The notes beneath the pieces were generated by a model. The model was not told the DNA's origin and searched no databases. It was given only the letters and a program-made list of their open reading frames with translations. A stretch of DNA of 49,468 nucleotides from a virus: positions 1-49,468 of the IMG/VR virus record IMGVR_UViG_3300045885_000151, one strand, 5' to 3'. This document shows positions 3,030 through 32,228 of this stretch, one piece after another. How positions within the stretch are numbered: the stretch's first letter is position 1; each line of letters starts with the position of its first letter. The position numbers and the translations under genes were made by a program.

Positions 3030-4430
3030 CTATGCCGCGGCCGCCATCTGGCGATCGGCGAGCCACTGCTCGAACGCCGCCTGGGCGTCCATCTTGCCCA
3101 TCACGCGCAGCCGCTTCAGCTCGTCGACCGAATTGCGCACGACGCAGACGTTGATCATGACGTGCGAGGCCGCCTGGCCGGGCCGCTGCGTCCTGGCGAG
3201 CGTCTGCTCCCACAGCTCGGGGCTCCAGGTCGGGCTCATCCATATCTGACGGCTGCCGCCGTGCTGGAGGTTGAGCCCATGGCCGCCGCTGGCCGGGTGC
3301 AGGGCTAGCAGGGGAACCCTGCCAGCGTTCCAGCCCTCGATCGCCGCGGCCGCGTCGCGATCGCTGACGCCGCCGCCCAGGTAGGGGATGTCGCCGAACA
3401 GGCGCCGCATGACGCGCAGATCCTCGACATACTCGTACACCAGGAGGGCGCTCTCGCCGTTCAGGCTCTCGACCGTCTCCTCAAGCCACTCGGTCTTAGC
3501 CTCGTGCAGGCGCGTCACGTCGGCATTGGTCTCGCCGTACAGGAAGCCGTTGCAGATCTGCGCGAGCTTGCCGGTGGCGACCGCCTCTGTCGCTGCCAGG
3601 ACGAATTCCTTCGGCTTCAGCTCGGCGAGCAGCTTGCGCTCCATGTCGCGGTAGGTGCGGCGCACGTCGGACGGCAGATCGACATTGTCGACCTGGACGA
3701 CCAGGGGAGGCATGTCCGGCATCTCGCCGTCGTTCAGCGTCACCGCGATCTGAGCGAACTCGCGCCGGATCTGATCCTCTGCGCCGGGGAGCGGTGCCCA
3801 CTGGTACTGATTCCAGTCGAGGGGGTAGAAGCGTCGCTGCCGCCAGCCGTAGAAGCTCTTGCCCCATAGGCGGCCATTGGTGATGATCTTCACCGGGTTG
3901 AACAGGTCGAGCGAGCTGTTGGGCCGCACCGTGCCGGTCAGACCCCAGCGCAGCTTGAAGCGACCGGCCAGCTTGGCCAGCGCCTTCCCTCTCTTGCTCT
4001 TCGGATCCTTCAGCCGGCTCGTCTCGTCGATCACAAGGCAGTCGAAGATCGGGTGGTCGAGCGGCGCCTTCTCCAGGATCTCGCAAAGCCACTGCACATT
4101 GTCGATGCCGCAGATGGTCACCTGGCGATCGCCGACGCCAGCTATCAAGCCACGACGCCGCTCCGGCCCGCCGTCGAGCACGACGTGCTTCAGCCAGGCC
4201 AGGTGAGACCAGCCGCGGATCTCGGCCGGCCACACCGACAGAGCCACCCGCTTCGGCGCGATCACGAGAGCGTGACGGATCACCTTGTCCTCGATCAGCT
4301 CGCCGATCGCGGTTAGCGCCGATGCGGTCTTGCCGGCGCCCATGCGCAGCACACCCATCGCCATGTCGTGCGAATAGAGATAGTCGGCGACCCGCCGCTG
4401 GTGCTCGTACAGCTCCGATTCCTGCCTCAC
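3030..4430 (-). CDS. SNF2-type superfamily II DNA helicase
   Basis: A 466-residue SF2 ATPase of the SNF2/Rad54-like phage type. Motif I is GAGKT (31-35). The Walker B position is VIDET (133-137, DETS where many relatives have DEAH). Motif III is LTGT (164-167). Motif V is ASGGHGLNLQ (380-389) and motif VI QTLARTQRPGQ (409-419), with the arginine finger pattern of the family. It probably remodels or unwinds DNA during phage replication. The ATG at 4430 overlaps the polymerase stop by four bases (ATGA), so the two are translated together. It is the last gene of the leftward replication operon. Helicases of this type often sit beside a family A polymerase, a Cas4-like nuclease and VRR-NUC in phages. 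Confidence 0.9.
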   Translation of the reverse strand: MRQESELYEHQRRVADYLYSHDMAMGVLRMGAGKTASALTAIGELIEDKVIRHALVIAPKRVALSVWPAEIRGWSHLAWLKHVVLDGGPERRRGLIAGVGDRQVTICGIDNVQWLCEILEKAPLDHPIFDCLVIDETSRLKDPKSKRGKALAKLAGRFKLRWGLTGTVRPNSSLDLFNPVKIITNGRLWGKSFYGWRQRRFYPLDWNQYQWAPLPGAEDQIRREFAQIAVTLNDGEMPDMPPLVVQVDNVDLPSDVRRTYRDMERKLLAELKPKEFVLAATEAVATGKLAQICNGFLYGETNADVTRLHEAKTEWLEETVESLNGESALLVYEYVEDLRVMRRLFGDIPYLGGGVSDRDAAAAIEGWNAGRVPLLALHPASGGHGLNLQHGGSRQIWMSPTWSPELWEQTLARTQRPGQAASHVMINVCVVRNSVDELKRLRVMGKMDAQAAFEQWLADRQMAAAA

Positions 4431-6613
4431 AGCTCGGCTCCCTTCTTCGCTTTCGTGTACCAGCGCCCGGTGCGGGCATCGGCCTTGAGCGGCAAGCCGC
4501 GCGTCCAGTCGAAGCCACGCTCCATCTCGGTCTTCAGCATGGCGGCCGCCGTGCTCGCGTACTCGATCGCGCTCTCGACCAGGATCTCGTCGTGGGTGTG
4601 CAGGCGCACCGGCATCCAGCTACGGTCCGGCGCCTCTTCCAGGCGCCGAAGGGTGCCGCGCATCAGGTCGGCGGCGGCCGCCTGGACGGCGTTCTCGACG
4701 GCGAGCCCGTACCACAGCTTCACCCTGCCCATCTCGCGGGCGAACGTCAGGTGGCGGCGATAGTCGATGATCTCGCCGGTGTCCTCGTCGACCTCTGCGA
4801 TGCGCTCCCAGCGGCAGCGCCGGTAAACGACGCAGCGTGTGCTGGGCAGGATGCACATCAGGCTGCCGCCCAGGTAGCTGTCGAGGAAGACGTAGGTGAG
4901 GCGGCCGGCCGTGTAGAAGACCCCTGGATCCTCCAGCGCCGACAGGATCGCCTGCCAGATCTCGTCCCAGAACGCCGGCGCCCACGCATTGGTGCGGCGC
5001 CAGGTCTCGATCATGCCCTTCGCCTCGGCGTGCGTGTAGTGCTTGCCGGTCGCCGCAGCTCGGGAAAGCAGGGCGTCGGCGCCGCCCCCAAAGCCCGAAG
5101 CCAGCTCGATGATTTTGCCGTCGTCGCGCAGGTGCTTGTGCTCGTCGACGTGCATGATGTCGGCCGTCGCGATGCCGGTGAAATCGGATGCCGAGCGGAC
5201 ATAGATGTCGGGGATCGACGGATCGGCGTCGACCTGGGTGAAGATATCGAGGCGCTTCTGCGCCTCCGGCGTCCCGGCCAGGAAAGGCAGAACCCTCGCC
5301 TCGATCGCCGACCAGTCGCACCATGCGAAGGCATTGCCGTCGCGCGGCGTCAGCGTGGGCCGGATGATCAGGGCGAGCTTGCGCGACCGCGGCGTGTCGT
5401 CGCCGAACACCGCCAGGTCGATGGCGCTGATACCGTCGACCAGTGCGTCGATCACGTCGGCCTCGTAGGGCAGCGCCGCGCGCGTCATGTTGTGAACCTG
5501 GACGCCGCGCGAGCTGAACCTGCCGGTGTGGGTGCCGTGGAAAATGTAGCTGTTGGAGACGACGCCATCGACGTGCTGTTCGAGCATACGGCTGAACTTG
5601 GCGCTCGCCTTCGATCCGCCGTACAGCCGAAGTTCGAGCACGCGCAGAGCCCGCTTGTGCTCGTCGGTCAGCGTCTCCAGCGACCACAGATAGGCGAGCA
5701 GCTTCTCGACCTTCTGCCTGGGCAGATCGTACTTGGTCGGCTTCTTGATCTCGCCGGTCTCCTCGTCGACGACCGCCTGGCGCTTCACCAGGATCTCGCG
5801 GCCGTCGAACGGCAGGGCGTCTTGCAGCCAGATGATCATCGACTTGATGGAGTCGATCGTCTTCACCTTGCCATCGGTCAGACCGATCAGCTCGCCGACC
5901 GTGAGCTGCTTGTCGATCGCAGCCATCCTGGCGGCCGCCTGGGCGAGTTCGAGATCGATGCCGATGCCGCGCTCCGAGATCGCCTGCGCAGCCCAGTATT
6001 CCTTCCACTCGGCGAGCGGGAGCTGCCTGGTCGCGTTGAACACCTTGCGCATCAGGACGGTGTCCTGGTCGGCGTAGTCGCAGAACTGATCCCACTCGAC
6101 CGGATGGCTCTCCGGCGTCGCGGTTGATTCCGGCAGCGTGAACAAGTCGATCAGCTTGCCGCCGTCCTCGTGCTTGCCGCCCTGGCCGGAGAAACGGCCG
6201 GCGAATTCGAGCTTGGCCGGCAAGCCGGATGCAACAGCCTGGACGCGGCTGTCGATGATCTCCTCGACGCCGAGCCAGGGGAAGTCGTGTGTGCTGTGGT
6301 TCCAGACGGCGCGATCGAAAGGCGCATTGTGCGCACACATGACCGCTTCACCGTCGAACACACGCTGCGCCATCGCGCGAAAATCATCGGGCATGTCGTC
6401 CCATGCCAGGGCGCGCTCGAATGTCTCGACCGCCGTCACCGTCACCGGGCCTTCACCGATCGCCCATGACAGGATGATCGCCTTCGCGTGAAGAGCATAT
6501 TTGTGGGTGCCCATCTCGATCGGCACGCCGCCCTTCGTTTCGAAATCGATCCACAAAATGTCGCCCGGCGAGAATGTCTCGCCGGGCTCCCTCTCGTCGC
6601 GTTTCGCGAGCAT
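4427..6613 (-). CDS. Family A DNA polymerase with 3'-5' exonuclease
   Basis: A 728-residue replicative polymerase. Exonuclease motifs: Exo I IDFET (D23, E25), Exo II NAPFD (N96, D100), Exo III YADQD (Y180, D184); all catalytic acids appear present. Polymerase motifs: TGRFSS (363-368), motif A CDWSAIEAR (D433, E438), motif B R496-x3-K500-x3-L504-x3-F508-G509, motif C HDE (674-676). By alignment to E. coli Pol I the position of Phe762 is Leu504 and that of Tyr766 is Phe508, both unusual. There is no 5'-nuclease domain. The start overlaps the upstream stop as TGATG. It probably copies the phage genome together with the neighbouring helicase and primase-helicase. Confidence 0.93.
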   Translation of the reverse strand: MLAKRDEREPGETFSPGDILWIDFETKGGVPIEMGTHKYALHAKAIILSWAIGEGPVTVTAVETFERALAWDDMPDDFRAMAQRVFDGEAVMCAHNAPFDRAVWNHSTHDFPWLGVEEIIDSRVQAVASGLPAKLEFAGRFSGQGGKHEDGGKLIDLFTLPESTATPESHPVEWDQFCDYADQDTVLMRKVFNATRQLPLAEWKEYWAAQAISERGIGIDLELAQAAARMAAIDKQLTVGELIGLTDGKVKTIDSIKSMIIWLQDALPFDGREILVKRQAVVDEETGEIKKPTKYDLPRQKVEKLLAYLWSLETLTDEHKRALRVLELRLYGGSKASAKFSRMLEQHVDGVVSNSYIFHGTHTGRFSSRGVQVHNMTRAALPYEADVIDALVDGISAIDLAVFGDDTPRSRKLALIIRPTLTPRDGNAFAWCDWSAIEARVLPFLAGTPEAQKRLDIFTQVDADPSIPDIYVRSASDFTGIATADIMHVDEHKHLRDDGKIIELASGFGGGADALLSRAAATGKHYTHAEAKGMIETWRRTNAWAPAFWDEIWQAILSALEDPGVFYTAGRLTYVFLDSYLGGSLMCILPSTRCVVYRRCRWERIAEVDEDTGEIIDYRRHLTFAREMGRVKLWYGLAVENAVQAAAADLMRGTLRRLEEAPDRSWMPVRLHTHDEILVESAIEYASTAAAMLKTEMERGFDWTRGLPLKADARTGRWYTKAKKGAEL

Positions 6614-9248: not shown

Positions 9249-9536
9249 ATGCGCAAGCTGGTCGAGAAGGACGTCGAGAGCTACCTGGTCGACCAAGTCG
9301 AGGCGCTCGGCGGGCTGTGTCCGAAATTGATCAGTCCAGGAGGCCGCGGCTTCTTCGATCGGCTTGCCCTTTTGCCCGGTGGTCGGCTAACCTTCGTCGA
9401 GGTCAAACGACCACGAGGCGGCCGCGTCAGCGGGCACCAGCGCGAACTCCATGCGGCATTCCAAGCGCTCGGCGCCAACGTAGCCATCGTGAAGACGAAG
9501 GGGGATGTCGATCGGCTGCTCGGCCGACCGGCATAG
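9249..9536 (+). CDS. VRR-NUC domain nuclease
   Basis: A 95-residue stand-alone VRR-NUC protein. Motifs: E10 in the first helix, GRGFFDRL with D37, EVKRP with E51 and K53, and GHQRE with Q64, which is the PD-(D/E)XK arrangement of the family. Stand-alone viral members cut branched DNA such as Holliday junctions, so a role in resolving replication intermediates before packaging is likely. The ATG at 9249 directly follows the dyad at 9236-9247 and lacks a ribosome site, so translation may start on a leaderless or very short leader. A terminator follows at 9553-9590. Confidence 0.88.
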   Translation: MRKLVEKDVESYLVDQVEALGGLCPKLISPGGRGFFDRLALLPGGRLTFVEVKRPRGGRVSGHQRELHAAFQALGANVAIVKTKGDVDRLLGRPA

Positions 9537-9633: not shown

Positions 9634-12183
9634 ATGGCAGATTCCGTACCTCCTTACATACCGCACCGCAACAACTTCCTTTATGACAAGCGCGTGGCCA
9701 TGCTGGGGTTCGGCTGGCCCACCATCACCTGCGAGCGCAAGATCTTCATCGACCCAGGCTGGTCGACGGTCGAAATCGACCTCCCCTTCATCCAGGCCAA
9801 CCATGCCCGCCGCGGCGGGTCGAAGTGGAGAGGGGCCGGCGTCAGGCTCACGCCCGGCATGATGGTGTGGGATCTTGATATCAAAGACCGTGTGCTGATG
9901 GACGCCGTGCTCGATGCGATCGAGGCGGACCCATACTTCTCGACATTCTTGAGCGGCGCATTGTGGAGGCATTCCGGCGGGGCGAGCTGGGCACTGTTCA
10001 TGCAGGCATCGGCGCCGATCGCCGGCAAGCACAGCGCCACGTTCGGGCGTGAAGCGACATTCGAGACGACCGACGAGGCGCTCGAAAATCACCATCAGAC
10101 AGTGTGGGTGGACAAGGCGCATATCGAGATCTGGGGTGGCGGCGGCGGCGGCAAGTACTTCGCCGTGTGCGGGCCTCACAGCGAGGGTCGTGAGTACGAT
10201 TTCGACGGCCCGGCGCCGTGGGACACGCCGCTCAGCTCGCTGCCGGTGTTCGATGTGGATCAGGTCGGTCGCCTGATCGACCTGGTCGAGGCGGTGATGG
10301 CGAAGACGCTGACCAAGATCAGCGACGCGCGCAGCCTGGATGGATTGCGTGATGTCTACGACCTAACGCCACAGACGACGTTCGTGCGCAAGGACCGCTC
10401 AACCGTCACGCTCGCCGAGCTGGAGCGCACGCTGCGCGTGGGTACTTCACACGGTGAGCGCGGCTGCATGACCATGCAGGAATGGGTGGAATCGGACAGC
10501 CACGCACGCTGCCACGCATATCGTCGCGAGACCAACAAGCGGCTGACCATCACCAACTTCTTCGACATGACGCAGCACTATTATGTCGATGAGGAGCCGG
10601 CGCCGCCGTTCCAGCTCAGCGCATCCGCGGCAGCCGTGCTCAAGGCGATGCTCGACAACGCGCAGTCGGAGGCGCCGACAGAGCCGGAACCGGAGGCAGA
10701 GCCGGATCCTCATGCGTGGATCCATTGCCACACGATCGAGGGCATTAAGCGCGAGACGAGGCCGGTCGACACACACGACAATGCGACAGCCTGGTTGATC
10801 ACGCACGTCGCCTACTATGCGCAAGCGTTCAAGAGCGCGCCTGGCGGCATCTCGATATCGGTCGATGGCGAGTATCAGAAGCCGGTGTCGATCGTTGGCC
10901 TGCGCCACGCCATGAAGGCATATGGATACATCCTGGAAGGGCCGAGGGGCGGCCAGCGTTTCATCAATCCGGTAGACACCTGGCTGGCCAGCGAGCACCT
11001 GGTGCGCATCGGTGGCGTTCGCATGAGGCCGGACCTGCCGCGGCCAATGATGCAGGAGGGCACGGTCAGGTTCGTCAATCGCTATGCGCCGCCGTCGCAT
11101 CCCACGTCAGGCGGCGAGGTGCGCACTTGGCTGCGCAACATGGAGCGGCTGATCCCCGACCCGATCGAGCGCGCCTGGGTGATCAACTTCGTCGCCTGCA
11201 AGGTGCAGCACCCAGAGTGGCGCATGGTCGGTCTCGCCATGGTGGCGCACGAGCACGGCACCGGGCGCGGCCTGTTCGCGGAGACGTTGCAATACCTATT
11301 CGGCGAGCAATTCGTCGTGCCGCTGCGCTATGACGACATCACGGCGAGCCCACGCTTCAACGGCGAGGTCGAGGACCGCCTCATCGTCTATGTCAATGAG
11401 GCCAGGCACGCCGACAGCAATCGCTATGGCGTGAAGACGGCGAGCCGTGAGGCGCTGAAGGTCTTCATAGAGCCCAACCACCGCATACCGCAGCGCATCG
11501 AGAAGAAGGGCATCGACGTCTATTTCACGCACTTGGCGCTGATGACGCTGATCTTCGCCAACTCGATCAAGGCTGTGCCGATCGACGAGCACGATCGCCG
11601 CACTGGCGTGGTCATGAACGGCGCACAGATGACCACACAGCAGCGCGACGAGTACCAGGCATGGATGCTGGTGCCGGCCAACATAGGCGCCTTGTATCGC
11701 TTCCTGCGCGACTATGCGGTCGAAAAGGACCGCAAGATCTTCGACCCGTTCATGGCGCCTATGTTCGTGGGCCGTGACATGATGATCGAGGCGACGCAGA
11801 GCGAGATCGACCGTGCGTGGGCGGCCGCGGTTGCCAGGCTGAAGGATGCAGCGGATCTCTATGCGATGAGCCAGGCTGTGGCGCTGGCGCGCTCGTACAT
11901 GAGCGGGCCGGGTGATGATCTCACCGGGCTCTTGCGCAACCACACCTACGACAAGGGGCACCGCATCGGCGTGAAGCGTCCGAGCGAGCGCAATTGGCTG
12001 ACCAGATTCGGCACCGGCAAGGACAATCGCCAGGCGGTGTTTGCGCATAACGCAGAGGATGCGCGGGTGTGGACGAGCCGCGACAGCAGCGAGATCCTGG
12101 CAGAGTTGGAGAAGGCGCAGAAGGTGATCGATGCGCCGGCGAAGGCGGTGAACAAGGCGCTGAAGCTGGTGCCGAGGGAGTGA
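9634..12183 (+). CDS. Primase-helicase (AEP prim-pol plus D5-like SF3 NTPase, DUF5906-like)
   Basis: An 849-residue replication protein. The N-terminal part fits an archaeo-eukaryotic-type primase: WDLDIKD (D80, D82), RHSGGASW (112-119) and KYFAVCGPHSEG (174-185). An acidic linker follows (about 346-359, alternating E and P). The C-terminal part is a virus-type helicase: Walker A position EHGTGRG (540-546), Walker B LIVYVNEA (583-590, N588-E589) and sensor-like LIFANS (639-644). The Walker A lysine is replaced by Arg545. It probably synthesises primers and unwinds DNA at the origin. ATG at 9634 was chosen because the conserved region starts there; the ribosome site is weak. Eight short repeats follow the stop. 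Confidence 0.85.
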   Translation: MADSVPPYIPHRNNFLYDKRVAMLGFGWPTITCERKIFIDPGWSTVEIDLPFIQANHARRGGSKWRGAGVRLTPGMMVWDLDIKDRVLMDAVLDAIEADPYFSTFLSGALWRHSGGASWALFMQASAPIAGKHSATFGREATFETTDEALENHHQTVWVDKAHIEIWGGGGGGKYFAVCGPHSEGREYDFDGPAPWDTPLSSLPVFDVDQVGRLIDLVEAVMAKTLTKISDARSLDGLRDVYDLTPQTTFVRKDRSTVTLAELERTLRVGTSHGERGCMTMQEWVESDSHARCHAYRRETNKRLTITNFFDMTQHYYVDEEPAPPFQLSASAAAVLKAMLDNAQSEAPTEPEPEAEPDPHAWIHCHTIEGIKRETRPVDTHDNATAWLITHVAYYAQAFKSAPGGISISVDGEYQKPVSIVGLRHAMKAYGYILEGPRGGQRFINPVDTWLASEHLVRIGGVRMRPDLPRPMMQEGTVRFVNRYAPPSHPTSGGEVRTWLRNMERLIPDPIERAWVINFVACKVQHPEWRMVGLAMVAHEHGTGRGLFAETLQYLFGEQFVVPLRYDDITASPRFNGEVEDRLIVYVNEARHADSNRYGVKTASREALKVFIEPNHRIPQRIEKKGIDVYFTHLALMTLIFANSIKAVPIDEHDRRTGVVMNGAQMTTQQRDEYQAWMLVPANIGALYRFLRDYAVEKDRKIFDPFMAPMFVGRDMMIEATQSEIDRAWAAAVARLKDAADLYAMSQAVALARSYMSGPGDDLTGLLRNHTYDKGHRIGVKRPSERNWLTRFGTGKDNRQAVFAHNAEDARVWTSRDSSEILAELEKAQKVIDAPAKAVNKALKLVPRE

Positions 12184-12186
12184 TTT

Positions 12187-12397
12187 TGTCACCCAAACCC
12201 TGTTTTGTCACCCGGTGTCACCCACTGGGTGACAGTGGTAAGTGATTGGTGGGACTTGGTTTTATGGGTGTTTGTCACCCTGTCACCCATTATAGCTCGC
12301 GTGTATGGAGATTATAGACGTGAAAATGAGAGACCAGGAAAATGCGATCCTAATCCGCTCTCGCGTACGCGCGCGCGAGTCGGGTGACAGGGTGACA
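12187..12397. repeat. Eight TGTCACCC repeats, candidate replication origin
   Basis: TGTCACCC occurs at 12187, 12206, 12216, 12273 and 12281. Its complement GGGTGACA occurs at 12227, 12382 and 12390. The copies at 12216 and 12227 form an inverted pair. The first and last blocks face each other around a more A+T-rich middle (12284-12350). A further hairpin CTCGCG/CGCGAG lies at 12360-12379. The layout, directly after the primase-helicase gene, fits iterons of an origin or sites of a replication regulator. No supported gene lies between 12184 and 12428. Confidence 0.7.
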
Positions 12398-12428
12398 GCG
12401 GTTTGACCGGCAGAAAGGGAGAAGGCGA

Positions 12429-12647
12429 ATGGGGTTCAATGATTGGCTGAAAGTCGCCAGGGTCACCGATGACCCGGCAGGCGATCTTATCGGCGACATG
12501 AAGGGCGACAGAACGTTCCCGGCAGTGGTGAGAGGGCGCGCACCGCTGGCACGGTATCTTTCGTCGCAAGGCGCCTGCGCGGAAGCGAAGGAGGCATTGT
12601 CGGTCGTGTGGGCGCGCTATCGACGGTGGAGGAGCAAGCGTGGCTAA
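12429..12647 (+). CDS. Hypothetical small protein, 72 aa
   Basis: Starts MGFNDWLKVARVTDDPAGDL and ends in a basic helix (VVWARYRRWRSKRG). The central part with GDMKGDRTFP and RGRAPLARYLSSQGA reads like the small YozE-type phage proteins, a resemblance I cannot confirm. GGGAGAAGGCGA precedes the ATG. The stop overlaps the next gene's GTG start by 8 bases, so the two are coupled. It is the first gene after the repeat cluster. Confidence 0.65.
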   Translation: MGFNDWLKVARVTDDPAGDLIGDMKGDRTFPAVVRGRAPLARYLSSQGACAEAKEALSVVWARYRRWRSKRG

Positions 12648-31115: not shown

Positions 31116-32228
31116 GTGGCCTTCACAGCCGGTGAAATCACCAACATCGCCAATGCGGCGCTAGACTTCTACCTCGACAAGGGTGACGTATGGAGGCAGT
31201 CCCTCCAGGCGCGGCCGTTGTTCGACAAGATGGTCGCCAAGAAGAAGTACTTCTCGGGCGGCAAGGGTGACATCTCTGTCGCCGTGTCGGGAGCTATCGG
31301 TTCCGGCACCAATGACACGCTCAAGGGCTACACGCATGACGACACCGTCGTGTTCTACACGCCGGCCAACATCAAGCGCGCAGCTTATCCCTGGCGTGAG
31401 CATCACATCGGTTTGACCCTGACCCACACCGAATTGAAGATCGACGGCATCAGCGTTGTCGATCCCGGTTCGAACGGTGAGCGCACCTCCGAGCATTCGC
31501 GTCGCGAGATGCACGTCCTGGTCGGCCTCCTTGAGGACAAGCTGTTCGATCTCGGCGAGAACTACGCTCGTCGTTTCAACGCGCTCCTCTACGGCGACGG
31601 CGTCGCTGACGCGAAGGCTCTTGCCGGTCTCAAGCTGCTGGTTTCGGACGACCCTTCGGTCGGCCTGGTTGGCGGCATCAACCGGGCAACGGCTGGCTTC
31701 GAATGGTGGCGCAATCGTGCGTACACCGCGGCCTTCGGCGTGAAGGTCTCGGGCACTCCGGCGCTCGGCGCCTGGGGTGGCGGCGCCGTCACCTCAAACG
31801 TCGCTAATGGCGGCGCTCTGTTGCAGGTATTGCAGTCGGAGCGGCGTCAGCTCACCCGTTACGGCGGAAATCCGGATCTGTTTGTCGCCGGCAGCGCCTT
31901 CATCGGCGCCATGGAGACGGAGATCCGCGCCAACGGAAACTACACGCAGACGGGCTTCACGAAGAACCAGGACGGTTCGATGGGCACGATGCAGTTCGCC
32001 GGCACCGAGGTCATGTACGACCCGACGCTCGACGACCTGGGCCTGTCCAAGCGCGCCTACTGGATCGACACGAAGAAGATCGGACTGATGTGCATGGAGG
32101 ACGAGTGGATGCATCGGCACACGCCGGCGCGGCCCGCGGACAAGTTCATCATGTACCGCAGCATCACGAGCACCTGTCAGTTGGTCGGCAAGCAGTTCAA
32201 CAGCTCGCTGGTCATCGACATCGCCTGA
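31116..32228 (+). CDS. Major capsid protein
   Basis: A 370-residue protein beginning MAFTAGEITNIANAALDFYL. It follows the scaffold-like gene and is followed by a strong terminator, as major capsid genes usually are. It looks like an HK97-fold capsid protein: an early segment with KKKYFSGGKGDISVAVSGAI, a central part with YTPANIKRAAYPWREHHIGL, and a C-terminal domain with GNPDLFVAGSAFIGAMETEI and YWIDTKKIGLMCMEDEW. I am less sure about the subfamily. The start is GTG, with GGGGGAG upstream. Confidence 0.82.
   Translation: MAFTAGEITNIANAALDFYLDKGDVWRQSLQARPLFDKMVAKKKYFSGGKGDISVAVSGAIGSGTNDTLKGYTHDDTVVFYTPANIKRAAYPWREHHIGLTLTHTELKIDGISVVDPGSNGERTSEHSRREMHVLVGLLEDKLFDLGENYARRFNALLYGDGVADAKALAGLKLLVSDDPSVGLVGGINRATAGFEWWRNRAYTAAFGVKVSGTPALGAWGGGAVTSNVANGGALLQVLQSERRQLTRYGGNPDLFVAGSAFIGAMETEIRANGNYTQTGFTKNQDGSMGTMQFAGTEVMYDPTLDDLGLSKRAYWIDTKKIGLMCMEDEWMHRHTPARPADKFIMYRSITSTCQLVGKQFNSSLVIDIA

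Follow-up and report, generated by a model that had tools for sequence, protein, structure and literature searches.

An iteron array directly behind a phage primase-helicase gene as a probable replication origin

Introduction

Where does a phage that is known only from metagenomes begin to copy its DNA? Most such phages have unmapped replication origins. SaPI origins lie directly behind rep, are made of iterons and are recognized by the C-terminal domain of Rep, and Cch2 of SCCmec binds in like manner (PMC7581432). NrS-1 PrimPol uses an 8-nt recognition word, TTTGGTTA, together with GTG priming sites (PMC8718748, PMC7102993). In P4, the annotation puts crr 45 bp past the stop of alpha and the first annotated repeat at 50 bp. 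GTG priming sites have also been reported for ORF904 of pRN1. The authors of the pRN1 study describe that element as having no iterons of the kind that many plasmids carry, and they propose a stem-loop origin at the gene end for Bordetella phage BIP-1, where they found no origin-like iterons (PMC4234260).

Here we analyze a repeat array behind the primase-helicase gene of a phage. The window, that is, the whole stretch of DNA under analysis, is the complete virus record of 49,468 bases.

Results

The gap between the primase-helicase gene and the next gene (12184-12428) contains eight exact copies of the octamer TGTCACCC, the first of which starts 3 nt past the primase-helicase stop (Table 1). 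A sequence-only reading of this DNA had counted five direct and three inverted copies inside 211 bases, and we find precisely these, at 12187-12397. The cluster is far above chance. In 60 dinucleotide shuffles of the window, TGTCACCC occurred on average 1.03 times (maximum 5), and in another set of 60 the densest cluster of any 8-mer per 211 bases held three copies in 56 shuffles and four in the other 4, as compared to eight observed. The sole copy outside the gap (31265-31272, inside the ORF 31116-32228) represents chance level for the whole record. The downstream YozE gene bounds the origin gap and is not counted as part of the origin.

Table 1. Features of the primase-helicase locus and the adjoining gap in the window.
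Feature	Position	Strand	Remarks
Primase-helicase	9634..12183	+	Longest ORF from 9505; likely start MADSV... at 9634
Iteron block A	12187..12234		TGTCACCC at 12187+, 12206+, 12216+, 12227-
First spacer	12235..12272		38 nt, A+T 0.55; fits the 35-38-nt spacing of related loci
Iteron block B	12273..12288	+	Two tandem TGTCACCC (12273+, 12281+)
Second spacer	12289..12381		93 nt, A+T 0.49 (record 0.346); proposed melting region
Iteron block C	12382..12397	-	Two tandem inverted TGTCACCC (12382-, 12390-) facing block B
Next gene, YozE SAM-like small protein	12429..12647	+	PHROG 8600

The outer blocks had been described as facing each other. This is true of blocks B and C, which form a clean facing pair, namely an inverted repeat whose 16-nt arms match perfectly and lie 93 nt apart, but not of the left block, which combines three forward copies with one reverse copy and hence is not purely outer or facing. 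The middle, described as more A/T-rich, deserves this label relative to the record in both spacers, though not in absolute terms. The proposed small G+C hairpin is present at 12356-12377, and it is indeed small; together with an alternating G+C tract it ends the second spacer (12356-12380). Alternating GCGCGCG tracts occur in the long spacer between facing blocks of the window and likewise in L009, L019 and L020. Scans of the window with Rfam and for tRNAs returned no matches, and the 13 near-matches to DnaA boxes in the window are at chance level, with none in the gap.

What kind of protein is encoded in front of the array? Its start codon is likely, as we infer, the one at 9634 rather than that at 9505. 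The domain plan comprises an N-terminal PrimPol-type primase-polymerase followed by a DUF5906 (D5/SF3) helicase core. The protein matches PF19263 (DUF5906) in Pfam at 7.1e-08 and the PHROG family 'DNA primase' at 3.3e-20, and its best named relatives in a tblastn search are annotated 'DNA primase/polymerase' in Microcystis phage Mel-JY33 and Nostoc phage Nsp-JY18, at about 26% identity over 79% of its length. A profile built from nine relatives, the window protein included, matches NrS-1 PrimPol (6a9w) and the NrS-1 C-terminal region (6k9e) at 3.6e-27; by this profile, a PrimPol and a D5-like helicase reside in a single chain. The helicase core can be aligned to a VapE profile by hhalign (P 1.9e-06), while the VapE Pfam model has no match in the window. 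An AlphaFold model of the protein reached a pLDDT of 35. Searches of viral contigs, genome contigs and phage DNA retrieved no close homologues, and a pattern search with the nine-member alignment, whose members are too diverse, gave no result. To the left of the gene, a DNA polymerase (4427-6613), a helicase and an exonuclease are encoded on the minus strand, which identifies the region as a replication module.

We compared this locus with VapE-type primase-helicase loci picked by protein, blind to repeats, and completed the set with ten named phage loci encoding relatives of the window protein (L043-L052), L057 and the window itself. Four of the loci (L053, L078, L100, L106) sit on contigs that a DNA-word scan also found. 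The set holds 91 loci, 90 of them testable after L117, with 174 nt downstream, was dropped; L083, one of the loci picked by protein, runs off its contig. A 7-mer was considered significant if its repetition exceeded that seen in 99 or more of 100 dinucleotide shuffles of the 500-nt stretch. Among these loci, which are related to one another, 60 of the 90 stretches 3' of the stop contain such a 7-mer. Control stretches gave far lower counts, namely 5/76 in front of the gene, 5/75 between +1500 and +2000, and 4/89 within the gene itself; the remaining 30 downstream stretches are without a significant repeat. Repeats beside related helicase genes, which had been named as a check on the origin assignment, are therefore common, with no close homologue of the window initiator among these loci. 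Of the ten named phage loci, four fail at 0.01 (L047, L049 and L051 with no repeat, L050 with p 0.03).

The repeated words vary by locus and include TGTCACC, TGCCACC, AGGGACA, GGCAACA, GTAAACA, ACCCGGG and AACTAGG, among others. The nearest named relatives of the window initiator (L043, L044) have a different word, ACCCGGG, and the idea that iterons always begin with TGT was not upheld (e.g. L043, L045, L048, L050, L105). Two loci, L078 and L081, have their repeats in front of the gene and not behind it. An array of words resembling TTATCCACA precedes the VapE gene in L081 and in L037, which is on the same contig as L078; in L037 these words occur together with mutually facing TGTCACCC copies. 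The TTATCCACA-like words resemble the DnaA-box consensus. An iteron-like array of facing TGTCACC words is also found at 6620-6785 of L010, a high-GC contig with no recognized primase-helicase, where a nearby ORF of 553 aa matches no family. The phages closest to the window by terminase, Mae-Yong1326-1 and RHph_N65, have different primase-helicases or ATPases, of AAA_25 type. Repeats lie behind these genes as well (L159 4968-5507 and L160 34927-35308, respectively), with GACTGGCGC present five times in the former and ATCTCCGC twelve times in the latter, counts made without shuffle control.

Is it the word or the spacing that these loci have in common? We measured gaps between neighboring copies, with words chosen automatically, in 41 non-redundant loci with significant repeats, selected by a cut-off on shared 10-mers. 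Gaps of 0-5 nt number 146, as compared to 38.6 under random placement. Gaps of 35-38 nt were seen 30 times, those of 31-34 nt twice and those of 39-42 nt five times. Of the 41 loci, 26 have at least one gap of 35-38 nt, against a mean of 4.5 and a maximum of 12 in 2000 runs of a crude null that draws gaps uniformly from 20-120 and ignores the relatedness of loci. The proportion is 23/38 when the window and the DNA-seeded contigs are removed, and 17/32 when the L041 clade is removed as well. In 18/41 loci, a spacer of 60-110 nt follows within three gaps of the 35-38-nt gap; the window's two spacers measure 38 and 93 nt, and the inner gap of P4 crr, calculated from mapped positions, is about 35 nt. 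A further map, with words chosen by eye, covers 44 loci, P4 included. The layout, in which 35-38 nt separate block A from block B and a longer spacer leads on to an inverted block C, is often preserved at loci where the word is not. A spacer of 35-38 nt places copies about four helical turns apart. Spacing that often stays constant as words vary is the look expected if a protein of fixed shape reads the origin. Relative to this layout, the orientation of the copies is flipped in L046, L019, L020 and P4. A literature search, with subscription journals mostly outside its coverage, returned no mention of 35-38-nt spacing or of iterons behind phage primase genes; we do not claim novelty.

Could the copies instead be operators, through which the genes from 12429 on are controlled by some regulator of the phage or by its initiator, with replication starting elsewhere? 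The array stops 31 nt short of the next ORF, the L041 clade also has a stretch resembling a ribosome-binding site after block C, and there is one promoter-like match on the minus strand (12211-12183), where 0.2 would be expected. However, the gene behind the array varies among families while the primase-helicase in front of it is constant, a fixed 35-38-nt plus longer spacing across many words is unlike the operators of unrelated regulators, and a change of iteron accompanies a change of initiator. We consider an operator array in place of an origin improbable; autoregulation is a possible side function of the iterons.

We give a slightly smaller chance to the proposal that the stem-loop is the essential element, in which case the perfect 16-bp inverted repeat with its 93-nt loop would extrude and the repeated words would be a by-product of its arms. 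The predicted single-strand fold of 12184-12428 lies far below that of shuffled sequences (z -4.89, 0/200), and pRN1 has an essential 100-nt stem-loop 54 bp behind its PrimPol-helicase gene (PMC4234260). Yet such a fold arises because tandem facing iterons force it. Block A copies cannot be part of the stem, and several families lack copies that form one long perfect stem. Even in BPP-1/BIP-1 (L135/L136), the 9-mer TTTGCCTCG occurs as a tandem pair that faces an inverted pair about 465-570 nt past the primase stop, with an A/T-rich stretch of 70 nt enclosed between them; the BPP-1 primase has a DUF5906 core as in P4 alpha, but one under Pfam's own cut-off.

How far does the word carry without regard to genes? 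Searching the viral collection for TGTCACCCTGTCACCC, blind to genes, yielded 34 contigs, six of which encode a primase-helicase detected by the initiator profiles (L009, L019, L020, L033, L037, L041). In five of these six, the word is located 121-213 nt past the stop; in L037, it lies 142 nt in front of the primase-helicase ORF. The reversed word, used as a control, retrieved 12 contigs, none of which has a primase-helicase. The other 28 of the 34 contigs include tandem arrays free of any helicase, so the word alone proves nothing. In L036 (5556-5611), seven tandem copies of the 8-mer begin shortly after a tape-measure-like gene, the same arrangement is seen behind an ORF of the same size in L030 (8069-8124), and a longer tandem array follows a gene without assignment in L042 (3651-3850); these three arrays were left out of the origin counts. 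They do indicate that tandem arrays of the same 8-mer can exist without a helicase, as would be the case if the window's copies were a functionless minisatellite or chance cluster. The window copies, though, are spaced, occur in both orientations and have the spacing and position typical of related loci, which makes this explanation highly improbable, the least credible of the three alternatives. The notion that TGTCACCC is a word ancestral to all these initiators was rejected in general: with orientation reversed in L046, L019, L020 and P4, the likeness of words may partly be coincidence.

Two closely related VapE-type loci allow a closer look at how the word is read. Iterons of the L041 clade read TGTCACC, nearly the window's word. 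The initiators of L054 and L055 are 96% identical, with eight differences before a variable tail that starts near residue 674. L054 has TGCCACC where L055 has TGTCACC: in the first 220 nt past the helicase stop, five of six iterons differ at one shared position (C versus T), and the sixth differs as well. This pair likely represents a recent specificity switch. Three of the eight differences (residues 610, 612 and 613) map to the edge of the domain's first helix, and one, residue 665, to the putative wing, with Lys in L054 and Arg in L055. L057, 67-74% identical to the others, has four full TGCCACC and two TGTCACC iterons and carries Lys at the wing position. Lys is thus present in both TGCCACC loci (L054, L057) and in none of the 11 TGTCACC loci, all of which have Arg except for L056 with Asn; L154-L156, among these 11, were fetched afterwards as a test. 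The link to the wing residue rests on two loci.

Residues 599-672 of the L054 model follow the order helix-strand-helix-helix-strand-strand of a winged helix, with residue 665 in the last hairpin, where the pLDDT is about 66 (mean of the model 70). Among solved structures, the model best matches PriRep1 with dsDNA (7pds, 1.4e-27). Sequence comparison and model point to direct reading of iterons by the C-terminal domain in this VapE clade. The C-terminal part of the window primase-helicase presumably binds DNA and may read the window's word in the same way.

Discussion

Does the gap serve as the origin of this phage? Judging from the sequence and from the comparison with related loci, 12184-12428 is very probably the phage replication origin, with the primase-helicase encoded just upstream as its initiator. 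The sequence-only reading had likewise proposed an origin beside the primase-helicase that is recognized by this protein or by a partner, and the excess of repeats behind related genes over the three control stretches, together with the common spacing, supports that proposal. A switch in GC skew, suggested as a further check, did not materialize: the curve of cumulative GC skew does not turn at 12.3 kb, and its peak is near 16 kb. A sign change of the A/T skew near 9-10 kb coincides with a change of gene strand and is no evidence. The earlier reading was to be abandoned if a skew or coverage signal and conservation of the repeats were both absent; as repeats are common beside related genes, the origin assignment is supported.

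We propose that the initiator recognizes each TGTCACCC in double-stranded form through its C-terminal domain. As in the model put forward for SaPI Rep, initiator copies that load on the facing blocks would form two rings, and their ATP-driven movement would melt the 93-nt spacer, which is richer in A/T. Primers could then be made on the exposed strands by the N-terminal PrimPol, and forks would depart both ways with the phage's own DNA polymerase. The flipped orientation of copies at some loci is not explained by a simple loading model. Each iteron of the window is possibly a GTG priming site, too; as a general rule this was rejected, since the AGGGACA and ACCCGGG families are without GTG. With the site behind its own gene, the origin can move along with its initiator as a single exchangeable unit, and the two may be exchanged together, compare Mae-Yong1326-1 and RHph_N65.

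Might all of this reflect a single design? Tentatively, and at somewhat under an even chance, we suggest that PrimPol/DUF5906/VapE primase-helicases share one origin architecture, in which the spacing is held while the word drifts and is read by the C-terminal wing, with one residue (Arg or Lys at 665 of L054) tracking the word (TGTCACC or TGCCACC) in nearly all copies simultaneously. If true, the origins of very many uncultured phages could be called from sequence, and a code relating initiators to iterons could be derived. The comparison that started from the window supplies a rule for finding them: inspect the DNA past the primase-helicase stop for iterons that are spaced and face each other. 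With L054 and L055, 96% identical and yet with a changed word, DNA reading by such initiators is directly testable.

How does the window compare with the described systems? Like P4 alpha, the window protein has a DUF5906 helicase core, the spacing inside crr is similar at about 35 nt, and the P4 octamer TGTTCACC, the type 1 iteron of ori and crr, resembles TGTCACCC; in the window TGTTCACC occurs twice, which is chance level, and not at all in the gap. Unlike the window, P4 has two separate sites (ori and crr) with copies oriented oppositely in the layout, and alpha has a TOPRIM primase; the window protein does not have a zinc-ribbon TOPRIM and is of PrimPol type by profile. NrS-1 shares the domain plan by profile search. 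Its word, TTTGGTTA, is absent from the window; it occurs twice in the NrS-1 genome and acts there as a template site. Strict membership of the P4 or the NrS-1 type thus fails because the primase type or the recognition word differs.

The resemblance to pRN1 ORF904 and BIP-1 lies in a PrimPol joined to an SF3 helicase and an essential element behind the gene, an inverted-repeat structure of about 100-125 nt. A long stem-loop behind the gene is also found in the window (16-bp arms, 93-nt loop, z -4.89). Unlike pRN1, the window has plain iterons. SaPI, finally, has short iterons directly behind the gene of an initiator-helicase, as does the window, and the VapE/D5-kind helicase of SaPI and PriRep is recognizable in the window protein by DUF5906 in Pfam and by alignment to the VapE profile. 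The window differs from SaPI in that its protein is a PrimPol-DUF5906 fusion distant from the VapE set, in its iteron word, and in being a phage rather than a satellite. By analogy, the origin of the window would work like those of the SaPI, P4 and pRN1 types.
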